Positions 7,255 to 22,991 of a stretch of 64,000 nucleotides of DNA are shown here, piece after piece; within the stretch, counting starts at the first letter, position 1, and the number at the start of each line of letters is the position of its first letter. Made by a program: the position numbers and the translations under genes. Under the pieces are notes generated by a model. The model was not told the DNA's origin. It searched no databases and was given only the letters and a program-made list of their open reading frames with translations. Source of the stretch: Bacillota bacterium (lineage in GTDB: Bacteria; Bacillota_I; Bacilli_A; RF39; UBA660). The stretch is taken from assembly GCA_015059425.1 (NCBI GenBank), contig SVAM01000002.1, forward strand, positions 1 to 64,000, written 5' to 3'.

Positions 7255-8064
7255 ATGAAAAGATTTAATAGATTTAAAGCAAAAGATAGTAAAGCAATTT
7301 TTACTACTAAAGCTATGGGAGCTGTAAGATTAAGAGGTTCTTTTGCTATACAAGATTATCTTATTACTAATATTCTTGCAACAAATAAATATTGGGTCGA
7401 TTTAATTCATACTGAATATACTGATGAAGATATTGTTCATACATTTTTAATAAATACCGATAAAAGGACTTTATTTATTAAATGTTGTAAAGATAAAATT
7501 AGCATTCATTTTAGAAATATCACTCTAGAATATGCATTTGATTATGTTGGGATTGATTCCTATTGTACTAATTTAATAAACCAACAAAATAGATTTACGG
7601 AAAAAATGATTAATATTGAGTATCCAAATAAAAATCAATATATGATTATTGAAATTATATTTAATAGTAAAAAATTTGTTTTTAAAACAATTTATGATAC
7701 TACTGAGAATTATTCTACTGATTTATTGAGAACAATAAGTTTTAATAGCTCTATTATGGATTTAAAAAAATTTTTCATGGATAATTTTTATATAAAACAA
7801 AGTAATTATGAAAAAGGAAATGATACAATAATTTCTATATATGAACTTATAAATGGAGAATATGTAATTAAAGATGAACTTACAATTATAGATGGACACG
7901 TTATAAACTATTTATTAAGTTCTATAAAAGATAATGTAATTATAAGTGCTAAAGGAGAAGTTAGTGGAAAGCCAGAGATAACAATAATGAATTATACTCC
8001 TAGTAATATCGATTTAACAAAAGAAGCAAATCAATTACTTGTTAAAATAATGGGTTTAAAATGA
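7255..8064 (+). CDS. Hypothetical protein
   Basis: 269-aa ORF co-directional with 6811; no recognised motif. Confidence 0.65.
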   Translation: MKRFNRFKAKDSKAIFTTKAMGAVRLRGSFAIQDYLITNILATNKYWVDLIHTEYTDEDIVHTFLINTDKRTLFIKCCKDKISIHFRNITLEYAFDYVGIDSYCTNLINQQNRFTEKMINIEYPNKNQYMIIEIIFNSKKFVFKTIYDTTENYSTDLLRTISFNSSIMDLKKFFMDNFYIKQSNYEKGNDTIISIYELINGEYVIKDELTIIDGHVINYLLSSIKDNVIISAKGEVSGKPEITIMNYTPSNIDLTKEANQLLVKIMGLK

Positions 8065-8137
8065 TATTTTAAATCCTTTTTAGTTTATTTATTTACTTAA
8101 AGATTATACTTTGGTAAAATAATGGTGGTGATTTATT

Positions 8138-8890
8138 ATGTTGAAAATGAGTGATTTAACTGTTAGTGCAGATGATAAGATTATTTTAAATAATTTAAAT
8201 TTGGATATAAATGACGGAGAAATACATGTTTTAATGGGACAAAATGGAACTGGTAAAAGTACTTTATCTAAAGTTTTAATGGCTCATCCTGATTATAAAA
8301 TATTAAAGGGAAATATTATATATAATGATAATGTTCTTAATAATTTAGATACTACTAGTATTAGTAGATTAGGTTTTTTCTTATTAAGTCAAAATCCTGT
8401 AGAAATAGAAGGTATAACTAATTCTGAAATGTTACGTAATGTTTTAAGTGAAATTAATAATGAAAAAGTTGATATATTTAAGTTTAATAAAAAGTTAACT
8501 GAAGTTTGTAATATAATTGATATGCCAAAAGAGTATGTTCATAGAGATATTAATTTTAATATGAGTGGTGGCGAAAAGAAAAAAAATGAATTATTGCATT
8601 TATTTATGTTAGAACCTAAATTTGTAATATTAGATGAAATAGATTCAGGACTTGATATTGATGCTTTAAAAGTAGTAGGTACTTCTTTAAAAAAATATTA
8701 TGATTTATATAAACCATCAATTTTAATAATTACACATCATGCAGATATCTTAAAATATTTTGATGATTTTAAAGTTCATGTATTAAATAATGGTAGTATT
8801 GTAAAAAGTGGTAATAAAGATCTAATAAAAATAATAGAAAAAATAGGATTTAAGGCTAATGCTATTAATGGGAATGATATAAATGAATAA
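8138..8890 (+). CDS. sufC: Fe-S cluster assembly ATPase SufC
   Basis: ABC ATPase: GQNGTGKSTLSKVLM Walker A, MSGGEKKKNELLHL signature, FVILDEIDSGLDIDAL. Confidence 0.9.
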   Translation: MLKMSDLTVSADDKIILNNLNLDINDGEIHVLMGQNGTGKSTLSKVLMAHPDYKILKGNIIYNDNVLNNLDTTSISRLGFFLLSQNPVEIEGITNSEMLRNVLSEINNEKVDIFKFNKKLTEVCNIIDMPKEYVHRDINFNMSGGEKKKNELLHLFMLEPKFVILDEIDSGLDIDALKVVGTSLKKYYDLYKPSILIITHHADILKYFDDFKVHVLNNGSIVKSGNKDLIKIIEKIGFKANAINGNDINE

Positions 8891-9551
8891 ACTATCAGTG
8901 GAAGAGGATATAAAAAGTATTACTAGTGGAGAATATGAATTAGAATTTTATAAGAATATAGAATTAAATATTGATGGTAATGTTAAAATAAGCAGCTTAA
9001 ATAATCATGATTTAAAAATTAATTTAAATAGAGATTCTATAGTTAAATTAGAAAGTATTTATTTGCTAGATAAAAATATAAATATTGATGTAAATATATA
9101 TGATAATGTGGTTTTAGATTATAATGTATTAATAATTAATAATGGTAAAAATAAATTTAATGTAAATTTAAATATGTTAGGTAATAATAGTGATGTTAAG
9201 ATAAAATTGAGAACTATTAATAAGAATGATGAAAGCAATATCGATATAAATTGTAACGGTTTGATTGAATGCAATACAAAAGATAATAAGTTATTGGAAG
9301 ATTTAAAAGGTTTAATTATAAATGAAGGAGTTATAAAAATAAGTCCTAATATAAAAGTTTTAACAAATGAAGTAGAAGCTAATCATTTAGTTACTATTGG
9401 TTCGTTCGATAAAGCTGAAATGTTTTATTTGAAAACTAAAGGCTTAAGTAATAAAGGTGCAAAGAAATTACTAATTGAATCTTTTGTAACAAGTATTATA
9501 GATGATATAAATAGAGAAAAAATAAAAATGGAGGTGAAAAATATTGAATAG
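8883..9551 (+). CDS. Reduced SufB/SufD-family scaffold (222 aa)
   Basis: C-terminal ANHLVTIGSFDKAEMFYLKTKGLSNKGAKKLLIESFV is the SufB/SufD signature. Located between sufC and sufS. Confidence 0.75.
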   Translation: MNKLSVEEDIKSITSGEYELEFYKNIELNIDGNVKISSLNNHDLKINLNRDSIVKLESIYLLDKNINIDVNIYDNVVLDYNVLIINNGKNKFNVNLNMLGNNSDVKIKLRTINKNDESNIDINCNGLIECNTKDNKLLEDLKGLIINEGVIKISPNIKVLTNEVEANHLVTIGSFDKAEMFYLKTKGLSNKGAKKLLIESFVTSIIDDINREKIKMEVKNIE

Positions 9552-10740
9552 AGAAGATTTTCCTCTTTTAAAAAATGATATAATATATTTTGATAATAGT
9601 GCTACTAGTTTAAAACCAAAATGTGTTATTGATAAAATGAATGATTATTATAGTAATTATTCTGCAAATGCTCACCGTGGTGATTATGATTTGTCATTTA
9701 AAGTAGATCAAGAATATGAAAATACAAGGGAAATTGTGAAAAATTATATTAATGCAGAATATTTAGAAGAAATAATATTTACAAGTGGTACAACTGAAAG
9801 TTTAAATATGATTGCATCAGGTTTTTTTGGAAATTTATTAGAAGCTGGTGATGAAATACTAATAACAACTAGTGAACATGCATCTAATATCCTTCCTTGG
9901 TTTAGATTAGCTAATAAATTAGGTGTAAAAGTAAATTATATACCTTTAGATGATAATTATTATGTAACTCTTGATAATATAAAAAAAATGGTAAAAGCAA
10001 ATACTAAATTAATAAGTTTAGCTGGTATAACTAATGTTATAGGAGATTTAAGACCAATTAAAGAAATAACAAAATTTGCGCATCAAAATAATATATTTGT
10101 GGTTGTAGATGCTGCTCAAATGATACCTCATGAGAAAGTTGATGTTAAAGATTTAGATGTTGATTTTTTAGCATTTTCTGGCCATAAAATATGTGGACCT
10201 ACAGGTATAGGAGTATTGTATGGAAAACTTGAATTATTAGAACATTTAGAACCTATTAATTTGGGAGGCGGAATGAATGAATCTTTCGATTCTCCAGAAC
10301 AAACATATTTAAAACCATTGCCTACTAGATTAGAAGCTGGTACTCAAAATATTGCAGGAGTAATAGGTTTAGGTGAAGCAATAAAATATATTGATAAAAT
10401 TGGTATAGAAAAAATTAAACAATATGAACATGAATTAAGAAAATATTTAATTGATAAGTTATTAAAGATAAAACATATAGATATTATTAATTTAGAAAGT
10501 GATAGTGGCATAGTAGCTTTTAATGTAAATAATATTTTTAGTCAAGATGTAGCTTATTATTTAAATAAATATAATATTTGTGTTAGAGCTGGGAATCATT
10601 GTGCTAAAATTTTAAAATCTAGTGTTGGAGTTACAAATACAGTAAGAGTTAGTTTATATTTTTATAATACCTATGAAGAAATAGATAATTTAATTGAGTT
10701 ATTAAGTGATTATGATAAAATACTAAGAGAGATGATTTAA
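9544..10740 (+). CDS. sufS: Cysteine desulfurase SufS (TTG start)
   Basis: DFPLLKNDIIYFDNSATSLKP, FSGHKICGPTGIGVLYGK, RAGNHCA. Confidence 0.92.
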   Translation: MNREDFPLLKNDIIYFDNSATSLKPKCVIDKMNDYYSNYSANAHRGDYDLSFKVDQEYENTREIVKNYINAEYLEEIIFTSGTTESLNMIASGFFGNLLEAGDEILITTSEHASNILPWFRLANKLGVKVNYIPLDDNYYVTLDNIKKMVKANTKLISLAGITNVIGDLRPIKEITKFAHQNNIFVVVDAAQMIPHEKVDVKDLDVDFLAFSGHKICGPTGIGVLYGKLELLEHLEPINLGGGMNESFDSPEQTYLKPLPTRLEAGTQNIAGVIGLGEAIKYIDKIGIEKIKQYEHELRKYLIDKLLKIKHIDIINLESDSGIVAFNVNNIFSQDVAYYLNKYNICVRAGNHCAKILKSSVGVTNTVRVSLYFYNTYEEIDNLIELLSDYDKILREMI

Positions 10741-11284: not shown

Positions 11285-12889
11285 ATGAAGAGAAATGGTA
11301 AATTATTATTAATCATATTATTATTAGTATTAGTAGTTACAATAGGTATATCTTATGCTTATTTTATAATAGGAGTTAATTTTAATGTAGATACTGATGA
11401 AAATTATGGTAAAGCACCTGGACTTTTAAAAGTTGATTATAATGCAGGTACAAGTGCGTTAACTGCAAACGGTATAATGCCTGGAGATAGCATTAGTAAA
11501 GATTTTAGTGTAACAGTAACTCCTACAGATAGAGTAACTGTTACTTATGTCATAAAAATTGATATAGATACTAATACGTTTAAAAAATGTGATGATACTA
11601 CATGGCTAGATTTTGAAAATGAATGTATAAAGAATGCAAATGAATTAGTATATACATTAAAAGATGATAAAGGTATCATTATAGCTAATGGATATTTAGA
11701 AGGTAAAACTGGTGATATAATAATCGAAAAAAAAGAAAAAAAAGTTACTGCAAAAACTACATATAATTATAATCTAACTTTAGAATTTAAAGATACTGAT
11801 GCTGATCAAAATCACAATGTTAATGCAACATTTATCGGAAATTTAATAGTTGAATTTGCAGACAAAAATATAAAATTTGATAATAATTTATATGGTAATA
11901 AATATATATTAGCTAATACTACATTACAAACAGATGATCCGGATTTTTCAAAAACAAGCTGCACAAAAGGAACAAATATTGGTGGAGATTGTGGTGAAGA
12001 AACAGTAGGTTTATATAAATGCATAATTAAAGAAGATGGCAAATGTGCCAAACAAGATGAATTAAGTAGTTTGGATACTACAAGTTTAAATACAACATAT
12101 TATTATCGTGGTGATGTAGATGATAATTACGTAGAATTTGCAGGCTTCTATTGGAGAATAATCAGAATAAATGAAAATGGTTCACTAAGAATGATATATC
12201 AAGGAAGAGCAAAAGATGATGGCAAAAAATTAGAAATACAAAAAACAGGTAGTGAAACTCGACTGGCTGTATCTAGTGCATTTAATACAGATTACAACCG
12301 AGCCGAATATGTAGGATTTAAATATGAATTGGAAAATGCACATGGAACAGATAAGAAATCTACTATATTAAGTGCATTAGAAACATGGTATACAAAAGAA
12401 GATAATGAACTACAAAATTATGAAGAATACTTAGATACAGAATCAGGGTTCTGTGGAGATAGAAGTCTAGCAATTGGTCCAGGTATTGGAACAGCAACAA
12501 CACAATATAGAGCACTACGAAGAATGATGAGCGGTGCACCATCATTTAAGTGTTCAGATAATGAAAGTGATTTATACAAAACAAAGATAGGGTTAATAAC
12601 AGCGGATGAAATTGTATATGCTGGAGGTATATATTGGGGTAGTAATTTAGATGGGGCTAGTAATTTTAGTTATTACTTATATACAGAAGTTTCGTGTTGG
12701 ACGCTTACGCCGAGCCACTTCAATGAGACGAGTGCGCTTGCGCTTGCGTTTGCTATGTTCCCTGAAGGTATTTTGTACTATGATTACATAAATCGCTCGT
12801 ATGGTATCCGTCCAGTTATAAATTTGTCAGCTGAAAATCTGTCAATTTCTGGAAGTGGTACTATAAATAATCCATATGTCATTTCATAA
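11285..12889 (+). CDS. Signal-anchored surface protein with hypervariable C-terminal patch (candidate DGR-type target)
   Basis: N-terminal MKRNGKLLLIILLLVLVVTIGISYAYF. Core FAGFYWRIIRINENGSLRMIYQGRAKDD...NTDYNRAEYVGFKYELENAHGT shared with the 21112 gene. C-term CWTLTPSHFNETSALALAFAMFPEGILYYDYINRSYGIRPVINLSAENL. Confidence 0.85.
   Translation: MKRNGKLLLIILLLVLVVTIGISYAYFIIGVNFNVDTDENYGKAPGLLKVDYNAGTSALTANGIMPGDSISKDFSVTVTPTDRVTVTYVIKIDIDTNTFKKCDDTTWLDFENECIKNANELVYTLKDDKGIIIANGYLEGKTGDIIIEKKEKKVTAKTTYNYNLTLEFKDTDADQNHNVNATFIGNLIVEFADKNIKFDNNLYGNKYILANTTLQTDDPDFSKTSCTKGTNIGGDCGEETVGLYKCIIKEDGKCAKQDELSSLDTTSLNTTYYYRGDVDDNYVEFAGFYWRIIRINENGSLRMIYQGRAKDDGKKLEIQKTGSETRLAVSSAFNTDYNRAEYVGFKYELENAHGTDKKSTILSALETWYTKEDNELQNYEEYLDTESGFCGDRSLAIGPGIGTATTQYRALRRMMSGAPSFKCSDNESDLYKTKIGLITADEIVYAGGIYWGSNLDGASNFSYYLYTEVSCWTLTPSHFNETSALALAFAMFPEGILYYDYINRSYGIRPVINLSAENLSISGSGTINNPYVIS
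12686..12811 (+). other. Candidate hypervariable region (VR-A) in surface-protein gene
   Basis: 42 codons. Aligns with 22267-22386: 28 of 40 aligned codons differ, 26 non-synonymously, between near-identical flanks. Contains a cttgcg tandem duplication relative to VR-B. Confidence 0.55.
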
Positions 12890-13094
12890 ATGACATATGG
12901 AAAGACAATGAATATATGAAAGAAAGTTGTTGCAAAATGACTCCACATTTTGTAACTGCATAGCATATTTTACTCAGAAACATATAAAAAGATGTTTTTT
13001 TTGCCTGCCAAACTTGTTTGTCGGCTAGGGGTAAAAATTTAATGTCTTAGTTATGAGAACAGTATTATCTTAACGAGATTTAAAAATAATATTT
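12872..13094 (+). repeat. Conserved 3' block copy A (hairpins 12872-12900 and 12929-12956; 50-mer 13045-13094)
   Basis: Same order of elements at 22447-22674. CCATATGTCATTT-cat-AAATGACATATGG is a perfect 13-bp stem. The 50-mer TCTTAGTTATGAGA(A/G)CAGTATTATCTTAACGAGATTTAAAAATAATATTT has one mismatch between copies. Confidence 0.8.
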
Positions 13095-20980: not shown

Positions 20981-21115
20981 ATGAGAAAGATTTTAAGAAC
21001 TTCCCAACAGTTTGCTAAAAATGCATCTGGGGAGGGGCTATTTAAGTTAAACACTCAGATAGTATCTAGGCAAAATAACTTTAAGTTACCTTTAAATATA
21101 GAGGTGACAAAATGA
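20981..21115 (+). CDS. Unannotated 44-aa ORF translationally coupled (ATGA) to the 21112 surface-protein gene
   Basis: AGGAAGG RBS; MRKILRTSQQFAKNASGEGLFKLNTQIVSRQNNFKLPLNIEVTK*; TGA at 21113-21115 overlaps ATG at 21112. Confidence 0.55.
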   Translation: MRKILRTSQQFAKNASGEGLFKLNTQIVSRQNNFKLPLNIEVTK

Positions 21116-22464
21116 AATTTGAAACTATAAGAAGTAAAAAGAAAATATTATTAATTGGAATAATATTATTTTGCGTTAGTGTAACTTTAATATTAGCTAC
21201 AAGTTTAGCAGCTTATAAAAAAACAACAACAATTAAAATAGCAGAAGGTACTGTTAATTATATAATACCGGACTTTAAAATGATAGCGTTAAAACAGTGG
21301 AATGAAGAAATTGGAGAATATGAAGATGTTGGTGTAATGCCAAGTGGCAGTGAATATGTTATTTCTGAAGATAGCTATTGTGAAGTATTAGGAGAAAAGG
21401 ATGAAAATGTAGTACTCTATACTGATTCAAAAGGTCAGCATGTAATATCAAATATTCAAAAAAAATCGAAGTGTTATTTATATTTTGAAAAAAGAAGTAC
21501 TGGAAGTAAATATATTTTAGCAAATAGTAAAATGAGAAGTGGAACACCGAATTTTGCAAATACAAGTTGTACATCAGGGTCAAATAATGGTGGACATTGT
21601 AGAGAAGAAACAGTAGGTTTGTATTGTTGGGATATAGATACTAATGAGTCTTGTACATCTTCAAGCGAAAATAAAACATATTTTTATCGTGGAAATGTAA
21701 AAAATAATTATGTAAAATTTGCAGGGTTCTATTGGAGAATAATAAGAATAAATGAAAATGGCTCAATAAGAATGATATATCAAGGTAGAACAAAAGATGA
21801 CTATGGTAATGAATTAGAAATACAAAATGTTGGAGATGAAACTCAACTGGCTGAAACAAGTTCATTTAATACAGATTACAACCGAGCAGAATATGTAGGA
21901 TTTAAATATGAATTGGAAAATGCACATGGAACAGATGATAAGTCGACTATATTAAGTGCATTAGAAACATGGTATGCAAATGAACTACAAAATTATGAAG
22001 AATACTTAGATACAGAATCGGGATTTTGTGGCGATAGAAGTGCCTATACAGATACAAGTGGAACAACAGCAGGTGGGGGTACAGGATCAACTAGAACCTA
22101 TTATGGAACATATACAAGATTATGTACAAATAAAGCACCATCATTTAAGTGTTCAGATAATGGAAATGATTTATACAAAACTAAGATAGGCTTAATAACA
22201 GCAGATGAAGTGGCATATGCTGGAGGTACAAATACGTGGATTAATTATAGTTATTACTTATATACAGGCAATTTGTATTGGACGCTTTCTCCGGGCATCT
22301 TCGACGGTTCGTATGCGAATGTGTTTCTCATGGGCAATACTGGTGGCTTGGACTTCACCCGCGTGCAACACTCGTATGGCGTCCGCCCAGTTATAAATCT
22401 GTCAGCTGATAACCTGATAATTTTAGGAAGTGGATTAGCAATTGATCCATATGTCATTTCATAA
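21112..22464 (+). CDS. Signal-anchored surface protein with hypervariable C-terminal patch (candidate DGR-type target)
   Basis: Same core as the 11285 gene. C-term YYLYTGNLYWTLSPGIFDGSYANVFLMGNTGGLDFTRVQHSYGVRPVINLSADNLIILGSG. Confidence 0.85.
   Translation: MKFETIRSKKKILLIGIILFCVSVTLILATSLAAYKKTTTIKIAEGTVNYIIPDFKMIALKQWNEEIGEYEDVGVMPSGSEYVISEDSYCEVLGEKDENVVLYTDSKGQHVISNIQKKSKCYLYFEKRSTGSKYILANSKMRSGTPNFANTSCTSGSNNGGHCREETVGLYCWDIDTNESCTSSSENKTYFYRGNVKNNYVKFAGFYWRIIRINENGSIRMIYQGRTKDDYGNELEIQNVGDETQLAETSSFNTDYNRAEYVGFKYELENAHGTDDKSTILSALETWYANELQNYEEYLDTESGFCGDRSAYTDTSGTTAGGGTGSTRTYYGTYTRLCTNKAPSFKCSDNGNDLYKTKIGLITADEVAYAGGTNTWINYSYYLYTGNLYWTLSPGIFDGSYANVFLMGNTGGLDFTRVQHSYGVRPVINLSADNLIILGSGLAIDPYVIS
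22267..22386 (+). other. Candidate hypervariable region (VR-B)
   Basis: 40 codons. Overlapping segment 22273-22392 has 65 G/C of 120 by hand count, in an otherwise very AT-rich window. Non-synonymous-dominated divergence from VR-A. Confidence 0.55.
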
Positions 22465-22674
22465 ATGACGTATGGAAAGACGATGAAGATATGAAAGAAA
22501 GTTGTTGCAAAATGACTCCTCATTTTGCAACCGCTTAGCTTTATATTTTTCATCAACAAATAAAATAAGGAATTAACCCGCTGAACTTTGTTTGTCGGCT
22601 GGGCGATTATATAGAATAAAAATATCTTAGTTATGAGAGCAGTATTATCTTAACGAGATTTAAAAATAATATTT
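22447..22674 (+). repeat. Conserved 3' block copy B (hairpins 22447-22475 and 22504-22531; 50-mer 22625-22674)
   Basis: GTTGCAAAATGA-ctcc-TCATTTTGCAAC is a perfect 12-bp stem with 4-nt loop. Same arrangement as 12872-13094. Confidence 0.8.
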
Positions 22675-22694: not shown

Positions 22695-22991
22695 GTGGAG
22701 TTGGTTAATACGAAGAATATAGATAAGTATTTAATGTTAAAGGATAAATATCAAGATTATGTGATATTAATAAAATCTGGTAATTTCTATTATTCTTATT
22801 TAAAGGACGCTTTTATAATAAGGTATTTTTTTAATTATCAAATGCAGGGCAATAGAATAGGGTTTCCGGTTTCGGTGAAAGATAAAGTAATTAAATTGCT
22901 TAAAAATAATAATATAATGATGATATCAAGGATCAAGATGAATTCACTTTGTTCATCCTTGACATCATTTAAAGACTTAATTCCCAATTGA
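22695..22991 (+). CDS. Small MutS domain-I-like protein (possible DGR accessory); start codon uncertain
   Basis: IDKYLMLKDKYQDYVILIKSGNFYYSYLKDAFIIRYFF...GNRIGFPVSVKDKVIKLLKNNNIMMISRI aligns with the MutS N-terminal domain (YLxLKxxxxDxLLxxxxGDFYExFxxDA...GxPxxxxxxYxxxLxxxG). GTG at 22695 or ATG at 22734. Confidence 0.55.
   Translation: MELVNTKNIDKYLMLKDKYQDYVILIKSGNFYYSYLKDAFIIRYFFNYQMQGNRIGFPVSVKDKVIKLLKNNNIMMISRIKMNSLCSSLTSFKDLIPN

Follow-up and report, generated by a model that had tools for sequence, protein, structure and literature searches.

The window considered here, by which the whole analysed stretch of 64,000 nucleotides of DNA from a Bacillota bacterium (GTDB lineage RF39; UBA660) is meant, raises the question of what has rewritten a short patch near the 3' ends of two related genes, A and B (Table 1). 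An earlier note, made from the sequence alone, described the patch as divergent and mostly non-synonymous and took it for a candidate target of a diversity-generating retroelement (DGR), that is, for a variable repeat (VR) rewritten from a template repeat. A and B are paralogs, with 70% amino-acid identity across their C-terminal 254 residues; a third close paralog, C (72% amino-acid identity), lies on another contig (C11:2666-3436). Gene A comprises an N-terminal hydrophobic segment, a feature which by sequence is common to the targets, and a variable C-terminal domain, and has a weak, below-cut-off match to Peptidase_M73/camelysin-like proteins. There are about 19 paralogs of the family in the genome, and the remaining ones, where the region was extracted, are AT-rich or more diverged at the position of the patch.

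Table 1. Positions in the window of the target genes, their variable repeats and the elements recalling the DGR operon
Feature	Position	Strand	Basis or remark
Target gene A (534 aa)	11285..12889	+	Own-genome paralogs; alignment with DGR-associated targets of relatives
Variable repeat VR-A	12698..12811	+	TGGACGCTT... up to GxRPVINL
Conserved 3' anchor of VR-A, around CGT CCA GTT ATA AAT	12812..12829 (approximate limits)	+	Same position where template repeats diverge
Leader-like element TCTTAGTTATGAGAACAGTATTATCTTAACGAGAT	13045..13079	+	Stands ahead of the DGR operon in relatives; follows gene A here, with no operon
Target gene B (450 aa)	21112..22464	+	Own-genome paralogs; alignment with DGR-associated targets of relatives
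Variable repeat VR-B	22279..22386	+	
Second operon leader-like copy	22625..22659	+	After gene B
Truncated MutS-domain-I-like ORF (98 aa), left over from the gene that opens the DGR operon	22695..22991	+	22704-22934 similar to the L083 gene

A codon alignment of the 31 codons between WTL and GxRP confirmed the divergence: 22 codons differ between A and B, 21 of them non-synonymously, and the 41 nucleotide differences fall at codon positions 1 and 2 in 31 cases and at position 3 in 10; the counts made by hand in the earlier note over a slightly longer stretch (28 of 40 codons, 26 non-synonymous; 37 of 50 nucleotides) give the same picture. Every pair among A, B, and C differs in 22 of the 31 codons (19 to 21 non-synonymously). 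Nucleotide identity of the VRs is 0.56 (A-B), 0.61 (A-C), and 0.56 (B-C), whereas the 190-200 codons upstream reach 0.84-0.90 and those downstream 0.79-0.88; the VR is the most divergent stretch, matched by no window of equal length elsewhere in the genes, with an AT-rich loop at about residue 386 coming near in the A-B pair (0.59). This second loop, beginning at about residue 386 of gene A (window 12440-12540), is length-variable and strongly diverged among A, B, and C, and looks like ordinary loop variation. The G+C content of the patch, called GC-rich from the outset, is indeed 0.46-0.57; elsewhere in the gene it is about 0.30, and over the window as a whole 0.256. Of all 111-nucleotide windows, just 0.5% and 0.16% are as GC-rich as the patches of A and B, respectively, and GC3 is 0.52-0.68 within the patch versus 0.11-0.14 outside. 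In this genome, localised non-synonymous variation is seen in a variable repeat placed 3'-terminally in its target gene.

As to the limits of the patch, VR-A proper begins at about 12698 and not at 12686 as had been proposed, while its proposed end, 12811, holds, and the conserved GxRPVINL is indeed the 3' boundary in A, B, and the copy on contig C11. The opening motif TGGACGCTT occurs in the window only at 12698 and 22279, with 0.03 occurrences expected by chance. A search of the whole genome with a longer anchored pattern revealed a third copy of the patch, VR-C, at C11:3248, in a target paralog; the earlier note had proposed looking for a third copy next to a reverse transcriptase (RT). Template repeats of relatives diverge at the anchor (GTGCGCCCA/ATATCC versus CGCCCA/GTTATAAAT, the slash marking the point of divergence), which could make the anchor the IMH-side flank. 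Upstream of target B lies a small ORF (MRKILRTSQQFAKNASGEGLFKLNTQ..., window 20981-21114) with a GGGGAGGGG tract, and beside a template gene in another genome of the genus (G019; L134 3618-3760) there is a comparable ORF containing nine consecutive G; the small ORF could encode a slippage-prone (phase-variable) leader peptide.

The C-terminal domain of the target was modelled by AlphaFold2 with moderate confidence (pLDDT 77, pTM 0.84). The sole significant Foldseek match of the model is a Thomasclavelia IgA peptidase (E 1e-4, TM 0.34); the next tier, not significant at E 0.5-3, contains many C-type-lectin domains, including the C-terminal domain of Legionella Lcl. The domain is likely a ligand-binding surface domain, and the C-type-lectin fold that had been envisaged for it is weakly suggested by those second-tier matches.

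The genome of the window (G000; 1.148 Mb, 18 contigs, 95.68% complete) was searched for the machinery. Its assembly contains a single RT matching PF00078, a retron RT of the Ec107-like type with a QGAPTSP motif at C9:52770 (L001 1348-2298; C9:~52.6-53.6 kb), followed directly downstream by a gene which we take to be ychF; similar retron-type RTs recur across the genus. A DGR-type RT (GxxxSQ motif, Y-x-DD) was not found in the assembly, nor was a template, whether by a patch pattern allowing three mismatches, by an Asn-rich translated query at E<=10 (all matches of which lie within long target ORFs), by the pattern of the template trailer or by a trailer covariance model. The earlier note had held that lack of an RT or template repeat in the genome would refute a DGR; taken literally, this is what the assembly itself offers, and the relatives were therefore needed to decide, whose evidence supports a DGR.

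Members of the same target family also occur near DGR-type RTs in other Bacilli, where loci were gathered with a profile of the genus RTs; four of the targets were aligned with A and B. In thirteen such loci the VR recurs once more downstream, at a distance of between a few hundred bases and about 2 kb. The template partner in these 13 VR/template pairs was picked by plain identity, all bases counting alike; template adenines account for 186 of the 211 mismatches, the VR itself seldom has adenine at a mismatch (7/211), and in nine pairs the mismatches are exclusively at adenines. Adenine-specific mismatches, the defining signature of DGRs, are present within the window's own protein family.

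Within the genus, a set of 36 genomes was examined, the RTs being checked by motif: the RT locus was retrieved from 19 relative genomes, 18 of which have GLPIGN[ML]TSQ, and YMDD is present in those examined for it. The RT gene closes an operon in the order leader element (TTAGTTATGAtgGGCAGTATTATCTTAACTACA), MutS-domain-I-like gene, bAvd (PF22296), RT. The intact MutS-I-like protein matches PF01624 with 29.2 bits (cut-off 20.6), and PF22296 scores 40.2 bits in L069 (cut-off 40) and 36.1 in L083; the genus Avd also matches phrog_3206, 'Avd protein of DGR'. The MutS-like (MSL) accessory of DGRs was reportedly defined in a 2018 survey. Self-comparison, where it was carried out, revealed no template near the RT of this operon, the exception in the genus being a phage-like locus of G014 (L075, G014:C2), which represents a second DGR type with a classic cis template (RT 7919-8992, template/VR pair ~9802-10439; about 20 of 21 mismatches at template adenines). 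Template-free self-mutagenesis, suggested by the lack of RT-adjacent templates, was dropped as an explanation once the Asn-rich query had revealed templates in trans.

These templates are short non-coding copies, TCTCCGTATAACTTTAACGGCAGTAATGCTAACGTGTTC...AACAACAACAACGTGAACAACACGAATGGTGTGCGCCCA, located away from the operon, with GGTTAATCTA ahead of them and AATATCC plus a conserved trailer behind, and they stand singly or in arrays with a spacing of ~290-350 bp. The best trans pairs, found in G027 and G028 with template and VR on different contigs, involve the freshest VRs and have 16 of 17, 17 of 18, and 17 of 18 mismatches at template adenines; with the other, more drifted VRs of these two genomes included, 45% of template A positions are mismatched versus 13-23% at other bases. 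Trans pairs of G020 have 23 of 25 and 27 of 31 mismatches at template A. The template of the G020 pairs (L136) belongs, like its counterpart in G019 (L134), to a second class, and both rank among those nearest to the window VRs. Since the window VRs have no template in their own assembly, the adenine test had to be made against these templates of another species: VR-B and VR-C are mismatched at 62-65% of A and at about 20-23% of other sites (Fisher p 2e-5 to 4e-5), and VR-A at 61% of A and 32% of other sites (Fisher p 0.004). The earlier note had cautioned that several third-position T/C differences do not in themselves argue for adenine-specific mutagenesis. Templates of one genome in the genus differ from one another at non-adenine sites, and multiple such templates per genome can explain third-position T/C differences; several of the third-position differences seen here need either multiple templates or drift after loss. 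The DGR reading of the patch is supported by these relatives, in which the same family carries the same patch in the same place alongside a DGR RT, Avd, and templates, with the mismatches at template adenines, and by homology with their targets VR-A, VR-B, and VR-C are best read as DGR variable repeats. We infer that they, too, were made by adenine mutagenesis.

The Asn-rich query yields 11-75 target or template matches per genome where an RT was checked by motif, as against 8-12 in the three genomes that have neither RT nor templates (Mann-Whitney p 0.006), counts that mix targets with templates and depend on assembly quality. G020 holds two DGR RTs (G020:C28 and G020:C57; L070, L072), one of them adjoining ABC-transporter-like genes, and the two may work on different template classes.

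When 47 trailers are aligned, they fold into a shared structure in which the conserved TATCC of the template end pairs with GGATA in a closing helix, followed by two hairpins and a long terminal stem-loop, often with T-runs after it; in 25 of the 31 pairs, at least one sequence shows both partners changed in a compensatory way, and no matching family was found in Rfam. The simple trailer pattern occurs in 32 of the 36 genus genomes. The covariance model detected 25 copies in G030 (about 13 in one C20 array), 20 in G003, 14 in G028, and four in G019. In G025 and G033 it detected four apiece, of which the weakest are marginal, and in G000, G015, and G023 zero. Among 118 genomes sampled from 117 genera of the family, strong trailer matches were confined to the window's genus (G017); two further genera gave weak matches. 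Between 3 and 13 template RNA genes stand in tandem in the arrays of L139 (G028:C16), L138 (G026:C15), L149 (G021:C13), and G030:C20:22682-26093. In G025 and G033 template RNA genes are present and a DGR RT was not found in the assemblies, a state reflecting either incomplete assemblies or intermediate stages of loss.

In relatives the operon sits between a MYG1-like gene and a small gene followed by a lipoprotein gene. The genome of the window keeps the MYG1-like, small, and lipoprotein genes in this order (L206) with the operon absent between them, and in G015 and G025 the DGR genes are likewise absent between the MYG1-like and lipoprotein genes. What the window retains, apart from two leader-like elements, is the truncated MutS-domain-I-like ORF, 56% identical to the intact gene of L083 over 77 residues (E 3e-25) and cut off at about 80 homologous residues. 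The gene after it is presumably lepA; lepA was sought as a neighbour of the relatives' operons and was not found there. RT and templates are jointly absent from G015 and G023, the same as in the genome of the window. In a tree of MYG1 (one gene, several open forks, midpoint root) G025 groups with G026, and because G000, G015, and G025 are kept apart in it, the DGR losses in these three look independent. The window VRs are very probably DGR variable repeats and, as the operon and the templates are missing from the assembly and a truncated MutS-I-like gene is left, most likely the relict products of a lost DGR; we infer that the machinery is truly lost and not merely unassembled.

It is rather unlikely, if by no means negligible, that an intact, active DGR operates here, with its operon and templates in the unassembled ~4% of the genome, on a collapsed or unbinned contig, or on an unbinned plasmid or prophage. 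The completeness of 95.68% in 18 contigs and the ability of repeated template cassettes to break assemblies speak for it, as do the VRs, which are still strongly GC3-rich, arguing for recent activity and for room for the machinery in the missing ~4%. Yet the syntenic site of the operon is assembled and empty, the MutS-I-like gene is truncated, there are zero template RNAs versus up to 25 dispersed copies in relatives and just three GC-rich VRs, a search of viral contigs with target B found no related target, and G015 and G023 share the joint absence of RT and templates.

Other explanations do without a DGR. Ordinary diversifying selection with recombination among surface-protein paralogs, needing no retroelement, is quite improbable: the GC3 jump is limited to the patch, no donor of the VR segment was found in the genome, and the relatives' patch matches templates nearly everywhere except at adenine sites, although some 19 paralogs are available for recombination and the AT-rich loop near residue 386 of gene A diverges strongly as well. 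The GC-rich patches might instead have been imported ready-made from other species by recombination at the conserved flanks, as their G+C content, foreign to the gene, and the missing home template would allow; this is very improbable, since exact-pattern scans of genome and viral collections with the window VR found no outside copy, the first 24 bases of the VR match exactly only in the window's own genome within the genus, and the three VRs are all mutually different. That the retron-type RT writes the patch is scarcely credible despite its being the only RT found in the assembly, and it was rejected as the mutator by motif and family: it is a canonical retron RT, the same type coexists with true DGR RTs in relatives, and nothing ties it to the patch.

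For the relict DGR the following mechanism may be proposed. The ancestral RT-Avd complex, co-encoded in an operon with the MutS-I-like accessory, would copy short template RNAs, the products of template genes that lie apart in other places of the genome, with misincorporation opposite template adenines during copying, and the cDNA would replace the 3' ends of surface-protein genes up to the GxRPVINL anchor. Asn codons (AAY) would become random NNY codons, and the C, G, and T positions of the template would persist as islands. From the assembly of the window's genome the operon and all template genes are missing; a truncated MutS-I-like gene is left, and the VRs would be relicts.

DGRs as such, MSL-type accessories (PMC10053308), remote targets, and relict targets are already known. 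With the cis DGR of the Bordetella phage BPP-1 (mtd, avd, TR, RT) the system shares RT, Avd, adenine-specific transfer, and a VR at the 3' end of the target; unlike in BPP-1, the template of the genus is not beside the RT where searched, there are many template genes with structured trailers of their own and dozens of chromosomal targets, and RT, Avd, and template are absent from the window genome assembly. DGRs with an accessory MSL (MutS-like, PF01624) have been mentioned (PMC10053308), and the genus similarly combines a MutS-I-like accessory with Avd and RT, whereas the window keeps only a truncated copy. One machinery serving several remote targets, as well as degraded DGR loci, are features shared with the multi-target or trans-acting DGRs of Trichodesmium (18 TR/VR loci; PMC8867640) and Thiohalocapsa PB-PSB1 (PMC10907252) and with multi-TR predictions (PMC6642488), from which the genus differs in scale and organisation: its genomes of ~1.2-1.5 Mb have as many as 25 template RNA genes and as many as 75 matches to targets or templates, and its templates are independent RNA genes in arrays. 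Treponema denticola isolates lacking RT and TR keep target genes, which were regarded by the authors as remnants of a lost DGR (PMC4891356); like the window genome, they combine remote surface-protein targets with relict targets devoid of RT and TR, and they are a direct precedent for the probable loss described here, although in T. denticola the templates lie with the RT in a core module, in contrast to the stand-alone trans template RNA genes and the operon with a MutS-I-like gene in the window's genus. Independent template-RNA genes with a conserved trailer on such a scale were not found described in the literature searched, outside of which lies much subscription literature.

This genus of small-genome gut Bacilli probably runs a dispersed, fully trans-acting DGR composed of one MutS-I-like/Avd/RT operon and up to ~25 stand-alone template RNA genes (each beginning in a promoter-like sequence and ending in a covarying structured trailer, and many of them arrayed in tandem), by which dozens of surface proteins per 1.2-Mb genome would be rewritten into a combinatorial, antibody-like repertoire, and the window genome would be the decayed end state, with VRs left after repeated independent losses. 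Such trans templates and targets would escape DGR surveys in which repeats are sought close to the RT (as in PMC8144416). What is seen in the genus points to templates that can turn into structured RNA genes of their own, detached from the RT, with one enzyme serving many templates and targets, and thereby makes testable how template RNAs are recognised (through the covarying trailer), how templates and targets are paired, and what becomes of hypervariable surface repertoires after the loss of the mutator.
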